NCBI GenBank assembly: GCA_024278415.1
Contig: JAJRTI010000940.1
Coordinates: 1 to 15,979, forward strand
DNA: 15,979 nt
Direction: 5' to 3'
Source of the DNA: Planctomycetota bacterium
Lineage (GTDB): Bacteria > Planctomycetota > Brocadiia > JAJRTI01
Positions 1-11,996 of this stretch are shown piece by piece (position 1 is the first letter of the stretch; each line of letters opens with the position of its first letter). The notes below the pieces were generated by a model that worked only from the letters and a program-made list of their open reading frames with translations, was not told where the DNA came from and made no database searches. Made by a program: the position numbers and the translations under genes.

Positions 1-87
1 CGGCGCAAGCTGGCCCAGGCCCGGCACAGACGCCGCGAAGCCAATCTACAACTGCAGCAGCGCACGCTGCCGCTTGAAAACCGTTAG
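1..87 (+). CDS. C-terminal tail of an unrecognised protein (5' end outside window)
   Basis: Frame 1 is open from the first base to a TAG at 85-87 and gives 28 residues ending in QQRTLPLENR. The tail is rich in Arg, Gln and Leu and looks like a charged helix. It has no stop codon and no start codon within the window, so it can only be the end of a gene that begins upstream. The composition would suit a DNA-binding or coiled-coil C-terminus, but I do not recognise the family. The open frame is short enough to be chance. Confidence 0.4.
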   Translation, partial: RRKLAQARHRRREANLQLQQRTLPLENR

Positions 88-892
88 GAGGTCGTTGCTT
101 AACTTCGCACCGATTTGTCCCAGATGCGTTGAAACATTTCATGGGGGTACCCTTAGTGTGGGGCGAATCGCGCGAGAATGTAACATAAGCGCGACTGAGT
201 ACGCGCAGACTGGTTATTCATTGCTTGTACGGCCCGTGTCGCATCCAAGCCATTCGCTGACCATAGTTGCCCAGTCAACATCATTGCCTCACGCGGCTCG
301 CCAGACGAGGCCAAGAGAACCAGCTTACACGCCGGAGGCCGATCCTGCCCCCTGCAGCAGCGCCCGGCAACGACAGACGCGGCGCTCTGTCTGTGAGGTA
401 GCGGCCTGGCTTGAACGATTGATGGCCGGAGCGCAGAGACCATGGGCCGTGCGAACATGCCAGAGGCCTCCTGCCGCCAGATGGAAGCCCTCTGGCGTCA
501 GGCACGGTCGTTGTCTGAGACTACCAGTGCACTTCGCGTGGCGTCACAACAACTGCGATACCAACTCGGAAAGCCTAGGCATGGGGGGGGCGTTCCTCAT
601 GTGCGCGGTCGGCGGCGTTCGCATCTATGCGCAGCCAACACATACCGCGGGACAGCAGCGATCTGATGTCCCTGTGCGACAGGGCAAGATCGGGCTTGGC
701 TCCATGGGGGGCGACTGCCTGCCTGAGTTGATTCACCGGTCTTCGCCCGTTCACAGACGGCTCCGGGATGCTTCATTGCCCACATCCTAGACAAGCCGAG
801 GACTCTTGGGTAGAGCGGTGGGCTAACGGTGCATCACAGGCCAAACCGGAGCAGACACTTGTGGCCCAAAGGCGAGACCGACCAATTCATGA
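88..892. other. 805 bp without a convincing gene
   Basis: The open frames here overlap on both strands, have irregular composition rich in Arg, Pro, Ser and Cys, and show no recognisable motif or ribosome binding site. Two stem-loops can be seen. One is a 12-bp stem with one mismatch (470-481 with 491-502, 9-nt loop). The other is a perfect 6-bp stem (670-675 with 679-684, loop GCG). Neither is followed by a T-run. The stretch looks like decayed or non-coding DNA next to the fragments that follow. Confidence 0.5.
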
Positions 893-1212
893 TCATCTGC
901 TGGTGCCCACAGCGCAGCGCGATGCCGCCCGTGTGATCTGCCCGTCCCAGTGCTTGCCAATCACATCCCAGTCGAACGTCGCGTTGCCCGGAGGCACCGA
1001 CAGTCGATACGACCCGTACGCGTCGCTCTCCAGTACATCGGCATTCGGGTCGGTCACAGCCCCCGAATCTCTTTCCGCGCACGAGACATGACTTGCTGCG
1101 GGCTGTCCCCGAACTCCTCCTTGTGGACCCAGCCCAGGCCATCCTCCTGAAGCTGCATCCCCAGCCGCAGCAGGATCGCGAACGCCTTGTTGGGGATTTC
1201 ATGCCTCACGCC
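893..1212 (-). pseudogene. winged-helix DNA-binding domain fragment, frameshifted
   Basis: Reading the reverse strand from 1212, one frame gives GVRHEIPNKAFAILLRL, then GWVHKEEFG and SRARKEIRGL, and stops at 1054-1056. The next frame continues without a gap of sense as DPNADVLESDAYGSYRLSV and TFDWDVIGKHWDGQI, to a TGA at 893-895. The order is hydrophobic strand, helix, GWV turn, a recognition-like helix and a GSYRL hairpin. This resembles the OmpR/PhoB-type winged helix. The switch at about 1056 fits loss of one base, for example CTGCTG shortened to CTGTG. There is no start codon of its own, because the 5' side runs into the helicase fragment. The exact family is not identified. Confidence 0.5.
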
Positions 1213-1591
1213 ATCGATGGCGATGTCGAAGTCATGGTCGTCGATGGCTTGGTCGTATTCCCCGGTAGTCTCGGCTGGACGCGCCCACCCGGGCTCCCGT
1301 TCGGCCGTAGCGCTCTCGGAAGGTCCGGAACTTCTCGGACGCGATGGCCTTCAGGGGCGCCAGGTAAAACACCTTCCCTTTGTCGTGCATGGCCTCAACC
1401 GCGGCTATCTCGCCGACGAAAGGTTTCCCCGACGACGTCGGCGCGCTGATGATCAGGTTCCTGCCGGCGAACAGGTCGTAGCGCTGCACCGCGAGCCACT
1501 GCACTGGCAGGAGCCGCTCGTGTCCGCTGGTGCGCCAGATATCTATCAGGTCGGGGCTGACGCCGTACTTGATGAGTTCGTCGATGTTCAT
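1213..1591 (-). pseudogene. SKI2-like (DExD/H) helicase N-terminal fragment, frameshifted and truncated
   Basis: The fragment starts at ATG 1589-1591 and reads about 110 residues in frame. It shows a Q-motif-like segment (LLPVQWLAVQ), a Walker A region (APTSSGKPFVGE) and motif Ia (LAPLKAIASEKF). In SKI2-like helicases the Walker A lysine is normally followed by Thr; here it is Pro, which should damage ATP binding. After DYRG the frame breaks at a run of four G near 1260. Reading the next frame restores EYDQAIDDHDFDIAI, which continues the helicase fold toward motif II. Motif II itself and the other roughly 600 residues are absent, and the sequence passes into a winged-helix fragment. Related helicases act in DNA repair and in phage defence, but the remnant is too short to tell which. 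Confidence 0.7.
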
Positions 1592-1709
1592 GGTCGGACC
1601 TCCGTGGTCTGAGTGTCTCTCTTTGCTGCCTGTGGGCCAAGAAGAAAGGCTCGCCTCCCCGCAGCCATAACGGCTCGGGAGCGGACCTTAAGTCGCTCGT
1701 AGGAACGGT

Positions 1710-1728
1710 AAAGGGCTCTCGGCCCTTT
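1710..1728. repeat. stem-loop abutting the miniature element
   Basis: A perfect 7-bp stem (AAAGGGC at 1710-1716, GCCCTTT at 1722-1728) encloses a 5-nt loop. It ends two bases before the left boundary of the element at 1731, so the insertion lies directly at the foot of this hairpin. The rest of 1592-1730 shows no gene. Confidence 0.5.
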
Positions 1729-1730
1729 AG

Positions 1731-1970
1731 CCCGCATTTCTCACGAGTCCAGGCGGATGCCGATGCAAGGCGCACGGTGCGACGGCGTGCTCGGGCACGT
1801 CGAGCGCCGTGCAACGCAGCAGCGGCACCCGACTGGGCTCGCCCGAAGGGCCAGCCCCTCCGATCCGAGGAGCGCAACTTGTTGCTCAACCCACGCGTCG
1901 GCATAGACCGGAAGGCTTTCGAATGACAACCTTTCTGACACTTCTGTCCTAGGCTGGTGAGAAATGCGGG
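1731..1970. mobile_element. miniature inverted-repeat element (MITE or IS remnant), TSD TTAG
   Basis: The ends are perfect 14-bp inverted repeats: CCCGCATTTCTCAC at 1731-1744 and GTGAGAAATGCGGG at 1957-1970. A direct TTAG lies immediately outside each end (1727-1730 and 1971-1974), as expected for a 4-bp target duplication. At 240 bp the element is far too short for a transposase. On the reverse strand a frame runs to the left end and finishes LVRNAG just inside the repeat, which may be the last trace of a transposase. A C(GAA)G hairpin lies inside (1841-1851). The end sequence and 4-bp duplication recall IS1380-like elements; that assignment is from memory and unchecked. Confidence 0.65.
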
Positions 1971-2690
1971 TTAGGTCAGGCTGTCCTGACGGTGTGAGGT
2001 GTTGGAACGCTCGGAAGGCTCCTTGCTCACGGGCTCCATCCTACCGGCACCGACTGACATTCCCTGGAGGCGATGGGCGAGGTTCTCTTGCTACACACTT
2101 CCCCATCTACACGTGATCTCGAAGCGGACATGTGGGCTTTCCGGGTCCAGATCATATCTGGCAGCGCTATCCTGCCAACGTGGAAGCTTGGGAGGATGGC
2201 TTTCGAGGGCCGCTTACCGTTGACTGTCCTATCTCGCCCGGCCTCCGCTACGCAAGCGAGCGATTTGGTGGCCCCCGCGCGGCCCGAATGTGCACCAAAC
2301 TCCATCGCCTGTGCCATGAGTCCCAACCAGACAGGCAATAGCAGCGAAATGCGGCAACGCCCAGGAACACAGTTCCCCTGTGTCGCCAAGCCATAGGCGG
2401 CGTCCGCCATGAGGCGGAGCGCGTGATACATGCACAGCAGAACTGCGCTGTGCACGCGTCGTACAGCGGAACCCTAGCGAGCGGGCCTGCGGGCGCGCGG
2501 CGAGGACTCCTGCCCCCTCATCGTATGGGCCTGCGTCCCCTTCGGCGCCATGGCAAACGTGGATGGCGATGTTGCGTCTTTGCTCCAGGGCGTCTCTTGA
2601 AGCCACAGTCGGAGGTTGCTAGGATTCCTAGCGCGACTCCTGAGGGGCCGAGTGGGCGGCCTCTTGGTGAATTCCTCGACGGTCATCTAA
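1971..2690. other. 720 bp without a convincing gene; several palindromes
   Basis: No open frame here has a recognisable product. A reverse-strand frame of 142 codons (2027-2455, GTG start) is the longest plausible one, but its codon use is mixed (many CTA, AGA, AGG) and unlike the genes downstream, and it has no ribosome binding site. Dyads seen are TCCGCC/GGCGGA (2403-2418), TGCACAGC/GCTGTGCA (2431-2454) and GCTAGGA/TCCTAGC around a single T (2618-2632). They could be binding or recombination sites, but nothing nearby assigns them. Confidence 0.45.
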
Positions 2691-2795
2691 CATGCCTGCC
2701 GCGGCCGCCTTGGCCATGGCCAGGATTCCCGCTCTCACAGCCGCTGGAAGGTCGGACCACACAGCAATCACACTCACCAGGTCAGGGTCGTGGAT
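2628..2795 (-). pseudogene. short coding remnant with DPDL...RAGILAM motif
   Basis: Reverse-strand reading from about 2795 gives RIHDPDLVSVIAVW, then SDLPAAVRAGILAMAKAA, and ends at the stop at 2628-2630. The pattern DPDL-x(4-5)-W-x-x-LP-x(3)-RAGI-x-AM is conserved-looking and unlike random translation. I recall similar tails on short hypothetical proteins and recombinase ORFs in planctomycete-like genomes, but this is unverified. There is no in-frame start with a ribosome binding site. The open frame upstream runs through the antisense of the tRNA-like RNA (RQDSNLQ), a typical artefact of translating a tRNA 3' half backwards. Confidence 0.35.
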
Positions 2796-2804
2796 TCTTT
2801 GGCA

Positions 2805-2810
2805 TATACT
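2805..2810 (+). promoter_or_regulatory. possible -10 element (TATACT) for the tRNA-like RNA
   Basis: TATACT ends four bases before the first paired base of the tRNA-like RNA. Initiation would therefore fall at or just inside the acceptor stem. No good -35 sequence is visible 16-18 bp upstream. The call rests on position and on five of six matches to the sigma-70 consensus. Confidence 0.3.
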
Positions 2811-2814
2811 TGGC

Positions 2815-2909
2815 GCGCCCGCTACATTCTCTGATAGCCGCCGAATCTGGCAACTATCGGGCGAATCCGCGGCCTCTCCCTGCAGGTTCGAGTCCTGCCG
2901 GGCGTGCCA
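2815..2909 (+). ncRNA. non-canonical tRNA-like RNA ending in CCA
   Basis: The 3' part is textbook tRNA: T-stem GCAGG/CCTGC (2882-2886 with 2894-2898), T-loop TTCGAGT, acceptor strand CGGGCGT (2899-2905), discriminator G and CCA (2907-2909). The 5' acceptor GCGCCCG (2815-2821) pairs with all seven bases, with one G-U at the end. Between them there is no D-loop GG and no 7-nt anticodon loop. Instead a hairpin forms: CTGATAG (2831-2837) with CTATCGG (2854-2860), a 2x2 internal loop, GCC/GGC and the loop GAATCT. A small GCG/CGC hairpin follows (2861-2870). It may be a decayed tRNA (the acceptor resembles tRNA-Arg), an att-site tRNA 3' half with a chance 5' partner, or a functional tRNA mimic. The total is 95 nt including CCA. 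Confidence 0.45.
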
Positions 2910-2914
2910 GTCGA

Positions 2915-2966
2915 TCCCGCCGCGCGGGACACCCAAGAAGGCCGTCAGACCCCGTCTGGCGGCCTT
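2915..2966. terminator. two hairpins between the tRNA-like RNA and the anti-sigma gene
   Basis: The first hairpin is TCCCGC/GCGGGA with a 3-nt loop (2915-2929). The second is a 13-bp stem with one T-G wobble (2938-2950 with 2954-2966, loop CCC). On the reverse strand the second stem is followed by CTTCTTGGG, a weak T-rich tail 30 bp past the anti-sigma stop, so it fits best as the terminator of the sigma/anti-sigma operon. It could also end forward transcripts from the tRNA-like RNA. Confidence 0.55.
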
Positions 2967-2995
2967 GCGTCGTTCTGGGAGCACACCCCTGTGCG

Positions 2996-4408
2996 CTACT
3001 TCTCGGCCTTCGCAGGCTTCGCCGCGGCTGGCCTCACCTCGGCCCACTCGACTCGCACTTTGGCCGGCACCGGGGCGCCAGTTGGCGAGGCGACGACCTC
3101 CGGCTGCACCTTCAGCGACTTCCTCGCGTCGGGCTTCATGAGCGCAACGCGCAGCTTGGCCACACACACCGCGCCCGTGGGGCCCTGGTCGTCGAGTGAA
3201 AACGCCGCAAGCCGAATCTGGCCGGCCTTCAGGCCGCGGCGGTCGTACGCCGGCGGCCCGGCAAACTGCTTGGCCGCGCCGCCTTCAATGCCGACGATAG
3301 CGAGGGCCTGCGGAGGGGCCGTGAGCACGATCTGATACGCGCCCAGCGTCTTGCCCCCGGTGTCCACGACCAGCCTGGCTTGCCGGATTTCCGACTCCGG
3401 GGCCGCGGCCGCATCACGCACGTGGACCGCGCCGTTGCGGTCCACGTCGCCGCGTGGGGGCGCGGCGTTGGCGGACACGATCCGTCTGGCGAGCATCATG
3501 GCGTCGACGACGTCCACTTGTCCGTCGCCGTTGATGTCTTCGACTCGTGATGGGGCTTTCTGTTTGGCCATGTAGAGGGCGGCCGCTGCCTCGGGTTTGC
3601 GCGCCTCGGCCATGGCTCTAACTCGTCGCTTGGGCGCGGGCCGCGGTGCGGCCGGCTTTGCCGGAGCGACGGCGAACGCCTGGAACTTCTTGGCTTTCCC
3701 TGCCAGCTCCTCGGCGACGCGATCCTTTCGGGCAGGGCCGAAGGCTTTGCCGGTCTTGGGCTGCGCCAGCGCAGCCCCTGCGGCCCTGGCTGGCGCCGCC
3801 GGCTCGGCTCCAGCGGCAAGCGGCCGGCCCAGCAACGCCTTCTTGGCGCGGCGCAGGCCTTCGCTCTTCTCGTCGGCAGGGCGCAGACCGGACTCGATCC
3901 TGGATTCAGCGTCCCGGGCCATGGCGGCCGCGAACTCGGCCGGCTTGTCCGCCTTTCTGGCCGCGGCCAAGCGCTCCTCCACTACCGCCGACTCTCCCGC
4001 CGGTTTTGCGGCCACGGCCTGCGCTTCGGGCGCTTCTTTCTTGGCATCCGCTTGAAAGAACCAGCTCACCGGCTTGGCTTCGTCGACGCGCGCGCGATAG
4101 CGCCGGGCTTGCACGGTCCAGACCACGACGCCGGCCACGGCCAGCAGCGACGCCGCGAGCAGCATCGCACGCTTGGGCCAGATGGACACAACTCGCGCCG
4201 GCGCCTGCGCGGGCAGGCTGTCGCGTATGGCGTCAGGCACGTCGCCCGGCATGGCGAGCGCGTCGCGCATCGCGCGCTTGAAGGAACGCAGTCCCTTGAG
4301 CGCGGCTTGGCAGTGCTCGCAATGCTCCACGTGGGCCTGCACCTCCGGCGCGGCGTCGCCGAGCATGAGGTCGGCTAGGTCGAGATCGGTTGGGTGGGTG
4401 TTGTTCAT
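2996..4408 (-). CDS. membrane anti-sigma factor with dockerin and putative cohesin-like domain
   Basis: The product is predicted to hold the neighbouring ECF sigma factor inactive at the membrane. Of 470 residues, the first 40 carry a zinc-type anti-sigma motif HxxxCxxC (H26, C30, C33). One membrane segment lies at about 80-99. A long Ala/Lys/Pro-rich linker follows (about 105-285). Residues 290-333 form a dockerin type I repeat with two calcium-loop-like units (DINGDGQVDVVDAMMLARRI and DVDRNGAVHVRDA). Residues 343-440 look like a beta-sandwich (LVVDTGGKTLGAYQIVL, GQIRLAAFSLDDQGPTG), reminiscent of cohesin-type domains. Topology puts the zinc motif inside and the dockerin outside. The gene begins 45 bp after the sigma gene, in the same operon. 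The N-terminal role is well supported; the cohesin-like call is tentative. Confidence 0.8.
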   Translation of the reverse strand: MNNTHPTDLDLADLMLGDAAPEVQAHVEHCEHCQAALKGLRSFKRAMRDALAMPGDVPDAIRDSLPAQAPARVVSIWPKRAMLLAASLLAVAGVVVWTVQARRYRARVDEAKPVSWFFQADAKKEAPEAQAVAAKPAGESAVVEERLAAARKADKPAEFAAAMARDAESRIESGLRPADEKSEGLRRAKKALLGRPLAAGAEPAAPARAAGAALAQPKTGKAFGPARKDRVAEELAGKAKKFQAFAVAPAKPAAPRPAPKRRVRAMAEARKPEAAAALYMAKQKAPSRVEDINGDGQVDVVDAMMLARRIVSANAAPPRGDVDRNGAVHVRDAAAAPESEIRQARLVVDTGGKTLGAYQIVLTAPPQALAIVGIEGGAAKQFAGPPAYDRRGLKAGQIRLAAFSLDDQGPTGAVCVAKLRVALMKPDARKSLKVQPEVVASPTGAPVPAKVRVEWAEVRPAAAKPAKAEK

Positions 4409-4453
4409 GCCGTACTCGCCTTCAGCGGCGCGCTTGTTCGCTTCCTTGTGGTC

Positions 4454-5020
4454 TCACGCTTCAGCGAAAGCATGAGCCATGCTCTGCCGCGCGAGCCGCA
4501 GCGCGTTGTGCAAGCGCGACTTGACCGTGCCGACCGGCACGTCGAGCAGCTCGCCGATCTCCGCGTAGGACAGCTCGTCCATGAACCGGAGCACGAGGAT
4601 CTCGCGCTGGAGTTCGGGCAGGCCGTCGAGGAACTGCCGCACGAGCGAGCGCTCGTCCCGGCGCTCTGGGCTGTCGCCGTTGGGCGCGGGCACTCCGTCG
4701 AGCGGCTCGCCGCTCCCCGAGACGCGCGCCTGCCGCTGGCGCTTGCGCAGCAGGTCGTACGCTCGGTGCTTGACCACGGGGTAGAGGAAGGTCGTCATCT
4801 TGCCGGCCAAGTCCAGTTCGGGCAGTTTGCGGTGCAAGTACGCGAACACTTCTTGGAGCACGTCGAGCGCGTCGTCGCGGTTGCCGCAGAAGCGGTACGC
4901 GAGGTTGGCGACCCAGCGGTGGTGCCGATCGTAGAGCGCGCGGAACGCGTCCCCATCGCCAGACGCGGCGCGGCTCACCAGCTCGTGGTCGCTTGGACTC
5001 GGCGCGTTCAGTTCTGTCAT
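4454..5020 (-). CDS. ECF-type RNA polymerase sigma factor
   Basis: The 188-residue protein has the two-domain ECF layout. Sigma region 2 lies at about 20-90 (DAFRALYDRHHRWVANLAYR, then DDALDVLQEVF). Region 4 lies at about 130-180, with PELQREILVLRFMDELSYAE and VPVGTVKSRLHNALRLA, the helix-turn-helix that reads the -35 element. It would direct RNA polymerase to a small regulon and be held back by the anti-sigma factor encoded just downstream. The start is uncertain: ATG at 5020 is preceded by AGGAG only two bases away, and GTG at 5023 overlaps it. I chose the ATG. It is divergent from the protease gene across 273 bp, so the protease is a plausible target. Confidence 0.92.
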   Translation of the reverse strand: MTELNAPSPSDHELVSRAASGDGDAFRALYDRHHRWVANLAYRFCGNRDDALDVLQEVFAYLHRKLPELDLAGKMTTFLYPVVKHRAYDLLRKRQRQARVSGSGEPLDGVPAPNGDSPERRDERSLVRQFLDGLPELQREILVLRFMDELSYAEIGELLDVPVGTVKSRLHNALRLARQSMAHAFAEA

Positions 5021-5050
5021 CACTCCTGCATTGTCCGCGCGGGAGAGGGC

Positions 5051-5073
5051 GTCGCTTCACCTAGTGGAGCGAC
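5051..5073. promoter_or_regulatory. 10-bp inverted repeat in the sigma gene leader
   Basis: GTCGCTTCAC (5051-5060) pairs with GTGGAGCGAC (5064-5073) around CTA, with one wobble. It lies 30 bp upstream of the sigma gene start, so it is either a leader hairpin or an operator. I could not place a clear promoter for the sigma gene. Confidence 0.35.
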
Positions 5074-5225
5074 ATCTGGCTCAGAATGTTCACAGGAATT
5101 GTGTCTGCAACACCTCAGCCGCGCCTGGTGCGCTGGACGTGGCCGGCCCGCGCGAGGGGCTGACACGTGCAGGGCGGCGAGGCTGCCTGAAAAGCTGAAG
5201 TGGTACAGCAAGTCTACCGCATCCC

Positions 5226-5253
5226 TTGACTGTCCGCCACGCTCTGCTATGCT
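5226..5253 (+). promoter_or_regulatory. sigma-70-type promoter for the HtrA-like protease
   Basis: TTGACT (5226-5231) and TATGCT (5248-5253) are separated by 16 bp. Each is one or two bases from consensus. Initiation near 5260 would give a leader of about 34 nt containing GGAGGAG nine bases before the ATG at 5294. This suggests housekeeping expression, not strict dependence on the ECF sigma factor. Confidence 0.6.
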
Positions 5254-5293
5254 CGCGTTCGCCCGATCTGAGAGCGCGGGAGGAGCTTGCGCC

Positions 5294-6307
5294 ATGAGTG
5301 CCATCCGAACCCTTGCGGCCAGGACACGCCGGCTGCACCTGCTGCTAGTGCTCGCCGCCGGCGTCGCTTTGCACGATGCGCACGCGGCCGGCAGCGACGT
5401 CTATGCAAAGGCCGCGCCTGCATGCGTGGAGGTGCTGGTCAACGGACGGCTGAGCGGGTCCGGCGCGTTCATATCATCGGATGGCGTGGTGCTGACCGCC
5501 TGCCACGCGGTGGGTGCGCCCGGCAGCACGGTCGAGGTCCGCTCGCCGCTCATCGGCCGGCACGTGGCGACGGTCATGGCCGTCGACCAGGGCCACGATC
5601 TCGCGCTGCTGCGAGTGGGCGGCGGGCGGGGGCCCTACCCGGCGCTGTCCCTTGCGGACAAGACTCCGGCTGTGGGCGCGAGCGTGTGGCTGTTCGGCGC
5701 GCCCATCTTCCGCCACGAGGTCATGCTGCCGGGCAAGGTCGCGCGCGCCGCGCACACGTATGAATACCTGGCCGCCCTCGGAGGCTACGCGGAGGTCTAC
5801 TTCATTGCTGGGCCATCCCCTGTGGGCACGTCTGGCGGGCCGTGGTTGAACGAACGGGGCGAGGTGGTGGGGCTACAGTCCGGGTACATGAAGATGAAGG
5901 ACGCGTCGGTGGGCATTGTCTTCGTGGCGCCAGTCGAGGCGATTCGCGCTCTGCTCGCGGCGAAGCGAACCGCCAACACGCCCACGCTCGGCATCGCGGT
6001 CGAGGAGGTGTGGGAGCAGATGCCCAGGTTTCTCAAACGCGTGCCGCGGGGCACGGAGGGCGTGGTGGTGCGTCTGTTGCAGCCCGACGGCCCCGCCGCG
6101 CGGGCGGGCATCAAGCAGTGGGACACGATCGTCGCAGTGGAGGGCAAGCCGGTGAAGTATCGGGACCAACTCCTGCGCTCCATGCGCGCGCGGAAGCCGG
6201 GCGAGGGCATGAGGCTCACGATCCTGCGGCCCGATGGAGCAGGCACGGACGCCGCGACGCCCGTGCTGGGATGCCTCGAGGTCAAGTGGCTCAAGCCCGC
6301 GCCTTGA
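5294..6307 (+). CDS. secreted HtrA/DegP-like serine protease with PDZ domain
   Basis: The 337-residue product probably acts outside the cytoplasmic membrane on misfolded or specific envelope proteins. A signal peptide is visible: RTRRLHLLLVLAAGVAL, then AHA near residue 31. The trypsin-like core holds the full triad: H71 in LTACHAV, D102 in GHDLALLRV and S180 in GTSGGPW. The last 110 residues form one PDZ domain (about 215-330) with GPAARAGIKQWDTIVAVEGK. Two PDZ domains are common in DegP; one domain is usual in DegS and many bacterial homologues. The start at 5294 is chosen for its GGAGGAG ribosome binding site; the frame is open upstream but has no such signal. It is divergent from the sigma/anti-sigma pair and 100 bp upstream of the radical SAM gene. 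A role in regulated proteolysis of the anti-sigma factor is possible but only inferred. Confidence 0.9.
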   Translation: MSAIRTLAARTRRLHLLLVLAAGVALHDAHAAGSDVYAKAAPACVEVLVNGRLSGSGAFISSDGVVLTACHAVGAPGSTVEVRSPLIGRHVATVMAVDQGHDLALLRVGGGRGPYPALSLADKTPAVGASVWLFGAPIFRHEVMLPGKVARAAHTYEYLAALGGYAEVYFIAGPSPVGTSGGPWLNERGEVVGLQSGYMKMKDASVGIVFVAPVEAIRALLAAKRTANTPTLGIAVEEVWEQMPRFLKRVPRGTEGVVVRLLQPDGPAARAGIKQWDTIVAVEGKPVKYRDQLLRSMRARKPGEGMRLTILRPDGAGTDAATPVLGCLEVKWLKPAP

Positions 6308-6407
6308 CACTGCCGGCCTGCACGCTAAGCTCGCGCGGCGCTGCCGGCGCGAAATGCGAGCGCCGCGTCCGCCAATCACTCCCCACCGCCGCCAGGAGCT
6401 GAACGTC

Positions 6408-7643
6408 GTGTACTCTATCCGCCCGCCCGAAGTCGTGATCCTCGACCGCGTGAAGAATGACCCGGCCATGTCCGCCCGGCTCGACCGCATGCTGGAGCAC
6501 ATCGACTCGCCGTTGGTGCAGGTGGTCGACGATGCCGGGCTCGCGGAGATCGCCGCGGACCGCGGCTGGAACGTGGGCGGCAAGCGCACCGGGCAGTACC
6601 ACACCGACGAAGCCCCGGCCATCATCTTCAATGCGTTTCGCTTCGACGCGGACGAGGAGATCCGCGCGCTGTCCGAGAAGTATCCCGCGCTGCGCGCACA
6701 CCGCCTGCTCGGGATCAATCCGTGGGGGTTCCGCGACCACAAGCAGCTCCGCGAGACGCAGGACTGCATCTGCCAGTCCGCGTGGGAGTTCCACTGCGCG
6801 TTCGGATGCCTCCACGCGTGCCAGTATTGCCACATCACGCCGATCTTCAACATCATGATGAACGTCGAGGAGATAGCGGCGCGCATGCGCGCGTTCGGCG
6901 AGACGATCCCGGAGCAGAAACTCTACAAGTTCGACAACGCTACGGACCAGATCACGCTCGAGCCGGAGTACGGCGCGTCGCAGATCATGGTCGAGATGTT
7001 CGCGGACTGGCCGGGCCGCTACTTGCTGCTCTACACCAAGTCGGACAACGTGGACCACCTGCTTGGCCTGCGGCACAACGGCCACACGCTCATCAGTTGG
7101 TCCCTGGGCAGCGAAACCGCGTGCCGCGAGGTCGAAACCAAGACGCCGTCGCTCGACCAACGCCTCGCCGCGATGGAGAAGTGCCAGGCGGCCGGCTACA
7201 CGGTCCGCGCGCGCATCTCGCCCATGGCGCCGCTCAAGAACTGGAAGGACGAATACCGCGACCTCGTCGAGCGGCTCCTGGCGCGTGTCACGCCCGACAT
7301 CATCTCCGTCGACGTGATCGGGTGGATGGACGCGCGGCAGATGAAAGACGGACTGGACATGGACCTGTTCCATCCGGACTACGTGGCCGCGCTCGACCGG
7401 CGCGAGGCGGAGGGCTTCAAACGCCTGGGCAAGCACCTGTTCCCCCACGCGATGCGCGCGGACATGCTTCGCTACGTCATCAAGCAGATCCAGCGCGTCT
7501 CGCCGGACCAGCCGGTCTCGCTGTGCATGGAGGAGGCGGGCATGTGGCGGGAACTAGGCCCCTTGACCGGCATGACGCCCGGCCACTACGCTTGCTGCTG
7601 CGGCCCCACGAGCGTGCCCGGCCATCCGCTCCTGCGCGCGTGA
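6408..7643 (+). CDS. radical SAM protein, spore photoproduct lyase type
   Basis: The 411-residue protein carries the 4Fe-4S/S-adenosylmethionine motif CLHACQYC (C134, C138, C141). The spacing is CxxxCxxC, as in spore photoproduct lyases. Downstream blocks typical of that family are YLLLYTKSDNVDHLLGLRHN, ISWSLGSE and TPSLDQRLAAMEKCQAAGY, and ARISPMAPLKNWKDEY. The C-terminus ends in a cysteine cluster, YACCCGPTSVPGHPLL. Known members repair the thymine dimer of spores, but non-sporeforming bacteria have relatives of unknown substrate, so the reaction here is unproven. The start is GTG at 6408, preceded by AGGAG nine bases away. An ATG at 6354 is in frame but lacks this signal. It probably shares a transcript with the protease 100 bp upstream. 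Confidence 0.82.
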   Translation: MYSIRPPEVVILDRVKNDPAMSARLDRMLEHIDSPLVQVVDDAGLAEIAADRGWNVGGKRTGQYHTDEAPAIIFNAFRFDADEEIRALSEKYPALRAHRLLGINPWGFRDHKQLRETQDCICQSAWEFHCAFGCLHACQYCHITPIFNIMMNVEEIAARMRAFGETIPEQKLYKFDNATDQITLEPEYGASQIMVEMFADWPGRYLLLYTKSDNVDHLLGLRHNGHTLISWSLGSETACREVETKTPSLDQRLAAMEKCQAAGYTVRARISPMAPLKNWKDEYRDLVERLLARVTPDIISVDVIGWMDARQMKDGLDMDLFHPDYVAALDRREAEGFKRLGKHLFPHAMRADMLRYVIKQIQRVSPDQPVSLCMEEAGMWRELGPLTGMTPGHYACCCGPTSVPGHPLLRA

Positions 7644-11723: not shown

Positions 11724-11996
11724 GGCCTCCGACAGGAGGCCCCGTTTTACAAGCGAAGTCTTGCAAAACAGCCTCACTCCTACACCCGCAAAGGCAACAC
11801 AAATTCGCGTTTTGCCTAGGCCTCCGCACGGCATGTCCGTGCGGAGCCACGATTGCGCGCCAGACGGGGGTACCGGATCGACACCTGGCTCCCAATCGTC
11901 GCTCCGCAGGGGCATGCCCTGCGGAGGCGTCGAGGAGGACGACGAGCACGAACTGCGGCGCAGCCGCCCCTTTCTCGCAGCGAAGTCTGCGAAAAA
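11724..11996. repeat. array of five stem-loops of alternating types
   Basis: The five stem-loops are: GGCCTCC/GGAGGCC (11724-11741); GTTTTACAAG/CTTGCAAAAC with loop CGAAGT and one mismatch (11744-11769); CTCCGCACGG/CCGTGCGGAG with loop CATGT (11822-11846); CTCCGCAGGG/CCCTGCGGAG with loop GCATG (11902-11926); and a 10-bp arm ending CGCAG/CTGCG, again with loop CGAAGT (11971-11996). Members two and five share the loop but not the stem. Members three and four share the first seven stem bases and a CATG loop. An open frame runs through all of this on the forward strand but is not protein-like before about 12013. Confidence 0.65.

Follow-up and report, generated by a model that had tools for sequence, protein, structure and literature searches.

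What is the origin of the tRNA-like stretch at positions 2815-2909 (plus strand) of this Planctomycetota contig? Throughout, the window is the whole stretch of DNA that was analysed, 15,979 nucleotides in length. Read from 5′ to 3′, the 95 nucleotides comprise the acceptor-like heptamer GCGCCCG (2815-2821), which is the complement of the 3′ acceptor strand and with which many tRNA-Arg genes begin; a middle stretch (2822-2881) that is not recognisably tRNA and contains a hairpin of seven plus three base pairs at 2831-2861 (CTGATAG with CTATCGG and GCC with GGC, around the loop GAATCT); a T-arm, GCAGG-TTCGAGT-CCTGC (2882-2898); the 3′ acceptor strand CGGGCGT (2899-2905); a discriminator G at 2906; and an encoded CCA at 2907-2909. 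The two acceptor strands pair at seven of seven positions, with one G-U. Upstream, the hexamer TATACT (2805-2810) ends four bases 5′ of 2815, and two G+C-rich hairpins, read from the letters, lie 3′ of the CCA within 2910-2966, at 2915-2929 and 2938-2966. A first-pass annotation of this DNA had named the same parts, and all are present where it placed them, the downstream hairpins included; it had also remarked on the missing D arm and anticodon loop, and indeed the 95 nucleotides carry neither a D arm nor an anticodon arm. Among all of these parts, the segment 2882-2909 is the only one that clearly exceeds chance.

The stretch does not qualify as a functional tRNA gene with acceptor, D, anticodon and T arms and an anticodon loop, as judged by ARAGORN and Rfam. 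ARAGORN called no tRNA anywhere in the window, and 2700-3000 gave no hit to the Rfam tRNA family at a threshold as loose as E≤10. A tmRNA and an intron-bearing tRNA were considered and rejected: among the matches listed there was no ARAGORN call at the default threshold with introns of up to 3000 nucleotides allowed, and at lowered thresholds the listed matches were scattered across the window. Likewise, a tRNA-Sec, prompted by the length of 95 nucleotides, was set aside on inspection by eye, the letters showing no Sec-like anticodon arm. The stretch and a tRNA-Arg gene share all 28 of the 3′ bases, the 5′ acceptor GCGCCCG and a G1-U72 pair; the gene, however, has about 77 nucleotides with D and anticodon arms, whereas the stretch has 95 with neither and draws no call from ARAGORN or Rfam.

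To what does the segment 2882-2909 belong? Judged by its letters, it is certainly the 3′ end of a tRNA-Arg gene. It is identical at 28 of 28 positions to tRNA-Arg genes of Planctomycetota, which bears out the tRNA-Arg identity that the first-pass annotation had suggested, and none of 200 shuffles of the window contains a match to it at three or fewer mismatches. With up to two mismatches the 28-mer occurs in 90 of 392 sampled Planctomycetota genomes, at 117 listed places, and exact copies occur in seven viral contigs, four of which ARAGORN calls as tRNA-Arg. Searches of plasmids and phages with 2700-3000 returned short matches in 54 and 87 records, respectively; among the 40 matches listed, these sit mostly on the T-arm stretch. 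We inspected 97 places, namely the seven viral ones and 90 of the 117 listed Planctomycetota places (30 plus 60, with 27 left out). With introns allowed, an ARAGORN call overlaps 81 of the 97 and 16 have no overlap; when an intact tRNA is defined as an intronless one of 70-80 nucleotides, 78 are intact and 19 are not, the places whose state changed being L084, L137 (an intron-bearing tRNA-Glu when introns are allowed by ARAGORN) and L154. The anticodons of the intact relatives (79 calls) are TCG in 32, TCT in 28, CCT in nine, CCG in eight and ACG in two, and many of these genes begin with GCGCCCG and have the same G1-U72 pair as 2815-2909.

The places that are not intact suggest how such a segment could come to stand alone. 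Sixteen of the 19 have the look of 3′ halves of tRNA-Arg genes that were displaced by a cut in the anticodon arm; in these 16 the tRNA-Arg identity (at two or fewer mismatches) extends 17-29 bases upstream of the T-stem. This identity reaches eight bases in L142, six in L084 and one in L140, and in the window it ends two bases above the T-stem. L140 thus has in common with the window a cut at the T-stem, and its genome, G231, also carries L139, an intact tRNA-Arg that ends in the same 28-mer. Furthermore, in two genomes a displaced 3′ half shares its contig and strand with an intact tRNA-Arg, in the order expected of integration, the two being about 12 kb apart in G343 and about 3.7 kb apart in G301; Pfam scans of three open reading frames from each interval (L206 in G301, L205 in G343) gave no match to an integrase family. 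In G343, a CRISPR-Cas locus (L205, 2521-11180; Cas3 and Cas1 confirmed by Pfam) stands between the intact tRNA-Arg(TCG) and the displaced 3′ half some 12 kb downstream, and may be a CRISPR island inserted into a tRNA gene. In G028 (L132-L137) and G231 (L139-L142) one tRNA-Arg 3′ end recurs as near-copies, as many as six per genome, mostly displaced halves and spread over different contigs, which we read as repeated integration at one tRNA family.

We propose that 2882-2909 is a displaced tRNA-Arg 3′ fragment, an attR-type scar at the right end of a decayed element that lay to its left, and that the 5′ complement arose by chance; we consider this reading likely. The segment is an exact tRNA 3′ end that starts inside the gene and lies outside any intact tRNA. 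In the proposed sequence of events, a mobile element would have integrated by means of a tyrosine recombinase, with the crossover in the T-stem/T-loop region. A 3′-end copy borne by the element would have been joined onto the chromosomal 5′ part, such that an intact tRNA gene would remain at the element's far end, on the left; the 3′ end that the gene originally had would have been pushed, together with its downstream DNA, to the right end of the element. The element would thus have occupied the DNA left of 2882, where it has since decayed, and the genes right of 2909 would be chromosomal. The heptamer GCGCCCG and the middle hairpin would then be part of the element end, their pairing with the fragment being fortuitous. 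What carries this proposal is the 28-base tRNA-Arg identity, its sharp start at the T-stem and the presence in the phylum of displaced halves of the same gene family, and the last two of these support the scar option that the first-pass annotation had offered among others. Arguing against it is the position of the cut, the phylum's displaced halves being mostly cut in the anticodon arm and not at the T-stem.

Two features of the DNA on the left also speak for the scar, namely the lack of an intact recognisable gene over 2.9 kb and a lower G+C content than on the right. Positions 1-2881 are probably the remains of an integrated element; they hold no intact recognisable gene, and that they derive from a single element is our reading. 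A six-frame Pfam scan of this left 2.9 kb matched only a fragment of the N-terminal part of a DEAD-box helicase (1232-1591, minus strand; Pfam DEAD), whose nearest families are HamB-type defence helicases (PADLOC) and a phage Holliday-junction helicase (PHROG), and which has no recognisable continuation. A pair of terminal inverted repeats (1728-1753 and 1948-1973; 26 nucleotides, 85% complementary, with arms 194 nucleotides apart) resembles a small MITE-like transposable element without coding capacity; the 204 loci compared contain no copy of the 13-mer TGAGAAATGCGGG, taken from one arm. The G+C content in 400-base windows is about 60-65% over 1-3000 versus 66-73% over 3001-6000, although a lower G+C content is also usual in non-coding DNA, which counts against its use as support for a scar. 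No integrase was detected in six frames of 1-2900 (Pfam, E≤0.1), where the window would hold just the right end of the element, and ARAGORN found no intact tRNA-Arg in the window, the 2.8 kb left of the fragment included. Both of these negative results count against the scar, for which a recombinase and an element are presumed and an intact partner would lie outside the window.

Is a fragment that starts at the T-stem a plausible product of integration? The Islander survey (PMC4383910) reports 3919 islands in tRNA and tmRNA genes, 3760 of them with a 3′ fragment, and assigns 2083 islands to an anticodon-centred site and 1836 to one within the T-stem region. According to a review of archaeal recombinases (PMC8371274), the regions targeted likewise include the anticodon arm, the T arm and the 3′ end. 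Because both sources report T-stem or T-arm sites, a fragment starting at the T-stem is a normal product. The segment resembles the T-stem class of Islander attR fragments (PMC4383910), as that survey outlines it, in being an exact tRNA 3′ end from the T-stem through the CCA, and in being flanked by gene-poor debris where the element would be expected. Unlike in Islander islands as the survey outlines them, neither a partner tRNA nor an integrase was seen here, the window being short, and a 5′ acceptor complement precedes the fragment. Among the papers listed on YrlA and tRNA mimics, on pseudo-tRNAs and attR sites, and on tRNA pseudogenes and islands of Planctomycetes, we found no account of this tRNA-Arg-like object. 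If it is a scar, it is an ordinary one: it shows where a probable integrated element of this uncultured, Planctomycetota-like lineage once had its right end, and would account for the debris left of the fragment.

How probable is it that the 5′ acceptor arose by chance? We simulated 20,000 upstream sequences that kept the local dinucleotide composition; a heptamer pairing at all seven positions and giving the RNA a total length of 70-100 occurred in 9.4% of them and the exact heptamer GCGCCCG in 0.8%; for a heptamer scoring equally against the tRNA-Arg profile at one fixed position, P is 0.0002. Among 16 matches that are not tRNAs, one (L164) has a heptamer with seven of seven pairs at a length of 63-113. 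We conclude that GCGCCCG at 2815-2821 is probably coincidental, while noting that the 0.8% rate for the exact letters is the strongest argument against pure coincidence and so counts against the scar. The fragment matters mainly as a caution: by this simulation, a T-arm and CCA fragment preceded by a chance complement, which is expected 5′ of about one in ten such fragments, mimics the look of a tRNA mimic.

The same heptamer underlies the main rival to the scar, in which 2815-2909 is a decayed or rearranged tRNA-Arg gene that retains both of its original ends, its D and anticodon arms having been replaced or scrambled by insertion and deletion so that no working tRNA results. We judge this unlikely, but it keeps a real share of probability because exact GCGCCCG, found at the start of many tRNA-Arg genes, is so rarely met by chance at tRNA distance. 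Two features of the middle stretch also speak for it: the pentamer GATAG shares its offset with tRNA-Arg, a point that counts against the scar, and GAATCCGC resembles the 3′ anticodon stem of some tRNA-Arg(TCT) genes. The GATAG match was not enough, however, in alignment or profile tests. In global alignments of 2822-2881 with 65 unique tRNA-Arg 5′ parts, the fraction of 400 dinucleotide shuffles that did as well was 0.36 for the mean and 0.32 for the best, so that the middle is no closer to these genes than shuffles are, and for single tRNAs the fraction was 0.37 (L081), 0.37 (L083), 0.77 (L082) and 0.07 (L087). Profiles anchored by position, built from 50/63 unique tRNA-Arg parts of standard length only, gave P values of 0.27 (positions 8-26) and 0.14 (8-24) when anchored at the 5′ end and 0.12 (27-49) when anchored at the T-stem. 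Gradual decay of a tRNA-Arg gene is thus unsupported by either approach. Moreover, neutral decay should not spare the top half, whose bases are nevertheless those of functional genes at 35 of 35 positions.

Could the stretch instead be a functional RNA? One such reading is a tRNA mimic, a transcript with the top half of a tRNA and a long hairpin for its lower half, serving as a substrate or decoy of RNase P, the CCA-adding enzyme or EF-Tu. The top half has all of its parts, and the 95 nucleotides are able to adopt the tRNA-like fold as drawn (-32.1 kcal/mol; -37.4 when folding is constrained to the drawn fold). The free fold, at -38.3 kcal/mol, is somewhat better than those of shuffles (z of -1.92; 7 of 200 as good), but in it a competing pairing replaces the named acceptor. 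The middle hairpin, at -16.7 kcal/mol, is of ordinary stability: of 1000 shuffles 9.1% fold at least as well, and so do 153 of 282 60-nucleotide windows of 1-2880. Two promoter-like sites were detected in 2600-3100 versus a shuffle mean of 0.0, and the one on the plus strand (TTGGCA-18-TACATT, 2799-2828), rare in shuffles as it is, spans 2815 and would start transcription inside the RNA; the same scan of 2600-3100 found no T-tailed terminator. These signals neither support nor exclude a transcript.

Relatives that keep the fold would be evidence for such an RNA. A covariance model of the 95-nucleotide fold (R1, a single sequence entered twice) was run on the class of G190, a genome among the closest by GatB, and matched 33 places there at E≤0.001, spread over 30 of 75 genomes; in the phylum it matched 19 places in 19 of the 392 phylum genomes at E≤0.0001. 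All of the matches listed, 33 and 19, are 75-77 nucleotides long, the size of an ordinary tRNA, and 15 of 15 checked in the 75-genome set are ARAGORN tRNA-Arg genes. These searches used strict filters with few candidates per genome (at most ten among the matches listed for the 392-genome set), under which distant relatives may be missed, and within them we found no relatives that keep the fold and no covariation in the middle hairpin. On 26 chosen sources, R1 scored the window at 126.9 bits, tRNA-Arg genes at no more than 40.6 and displaced halves at 16.8-30.9, and exact scans of viral contigs gave no match to the junction or the hairpin. The covariance search that the first-pass annotation had suggested has thus yielded tRNA-sized matches and no hairpin-keeping relatives, and the outcome that it had named as adverse, homologues sharing only 2882-2909, is nearly what we observe: the matches were either intact tRNA-Arg genes or displaced 3′ halves, and in no case did they include the middle hairpin. 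That annotation had weighed a mimic, a decayed tRNA-Arg and an att scar, the flanking debris favouring the scar and the acceptor complementarity a real RNA. Its tRNA-Arg identity is right and its scar option is supported; its argument for a real RNA is weakened by the chance rates above, by a hairpin no stronger than the neighbouring DNA and by the lack of relatives found. We regard a tRNA mimic as very improbable, and as slightly more improbable still a lineage-specific RNA that would have kept the tRNA-Arg top half, exchanged its decoding half for a hairpin and, with tRNA-like processing, taken on a decoy or regulatory role. The bacterial Y RNA YrlA (RF02553) was also considered and rejected. 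It was the best weak Rfam match (2857-2962; 16.4 bits, where the gathering score is 69, and an E of 0.76), and YrlA and other bacterial Y RNAs share a T-arm-like hairpin with 2815-2909, but the match begins inside the 95 nucleotides, continues past 2909 and falls below the Rfam cut-off. Y RNAs partner a Ro60-type protein, and none was identified among the 15 window open reading frames scanned against Pfam.

We turn finally to the DNA right of the fragment. The hairpins within 2910-2966 are perhaps the old downstream flank of the tRNA, or else the end of the convergent gene at 2996-4408 (minus strand). That gene contains a dockerin domain by Pfam and lies beside a sigma-70-family gene (4454-5023, minus strand; Pfam), a position that suggests that its product is an anti-sigma factor. 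Among 7996 candidates scored, the 2996-4408 product matched itself alone, and therefore synteny could not locate an empty site. The window resembles Planctomycetota, its GatA being 65% identical to the closest match and its GatB at most 63% among the matches listed and 60-61% in the three best-scoring, and the genomes searched contained no close relative of it. Elsewhere in the window, a gene at 6234-7643 (plus strand) encodes a protein with Pfam spore photoproduct lyase (SPL) and radical SAM matches, and it is adjoined by a gene for a trypsin-like and PDZ protein (4394-6307). A long near-perfect palindrome at 11816-11932 gives weak Rfam matches, below cut-offs, to plant and animal microRNA precursors on both strands.
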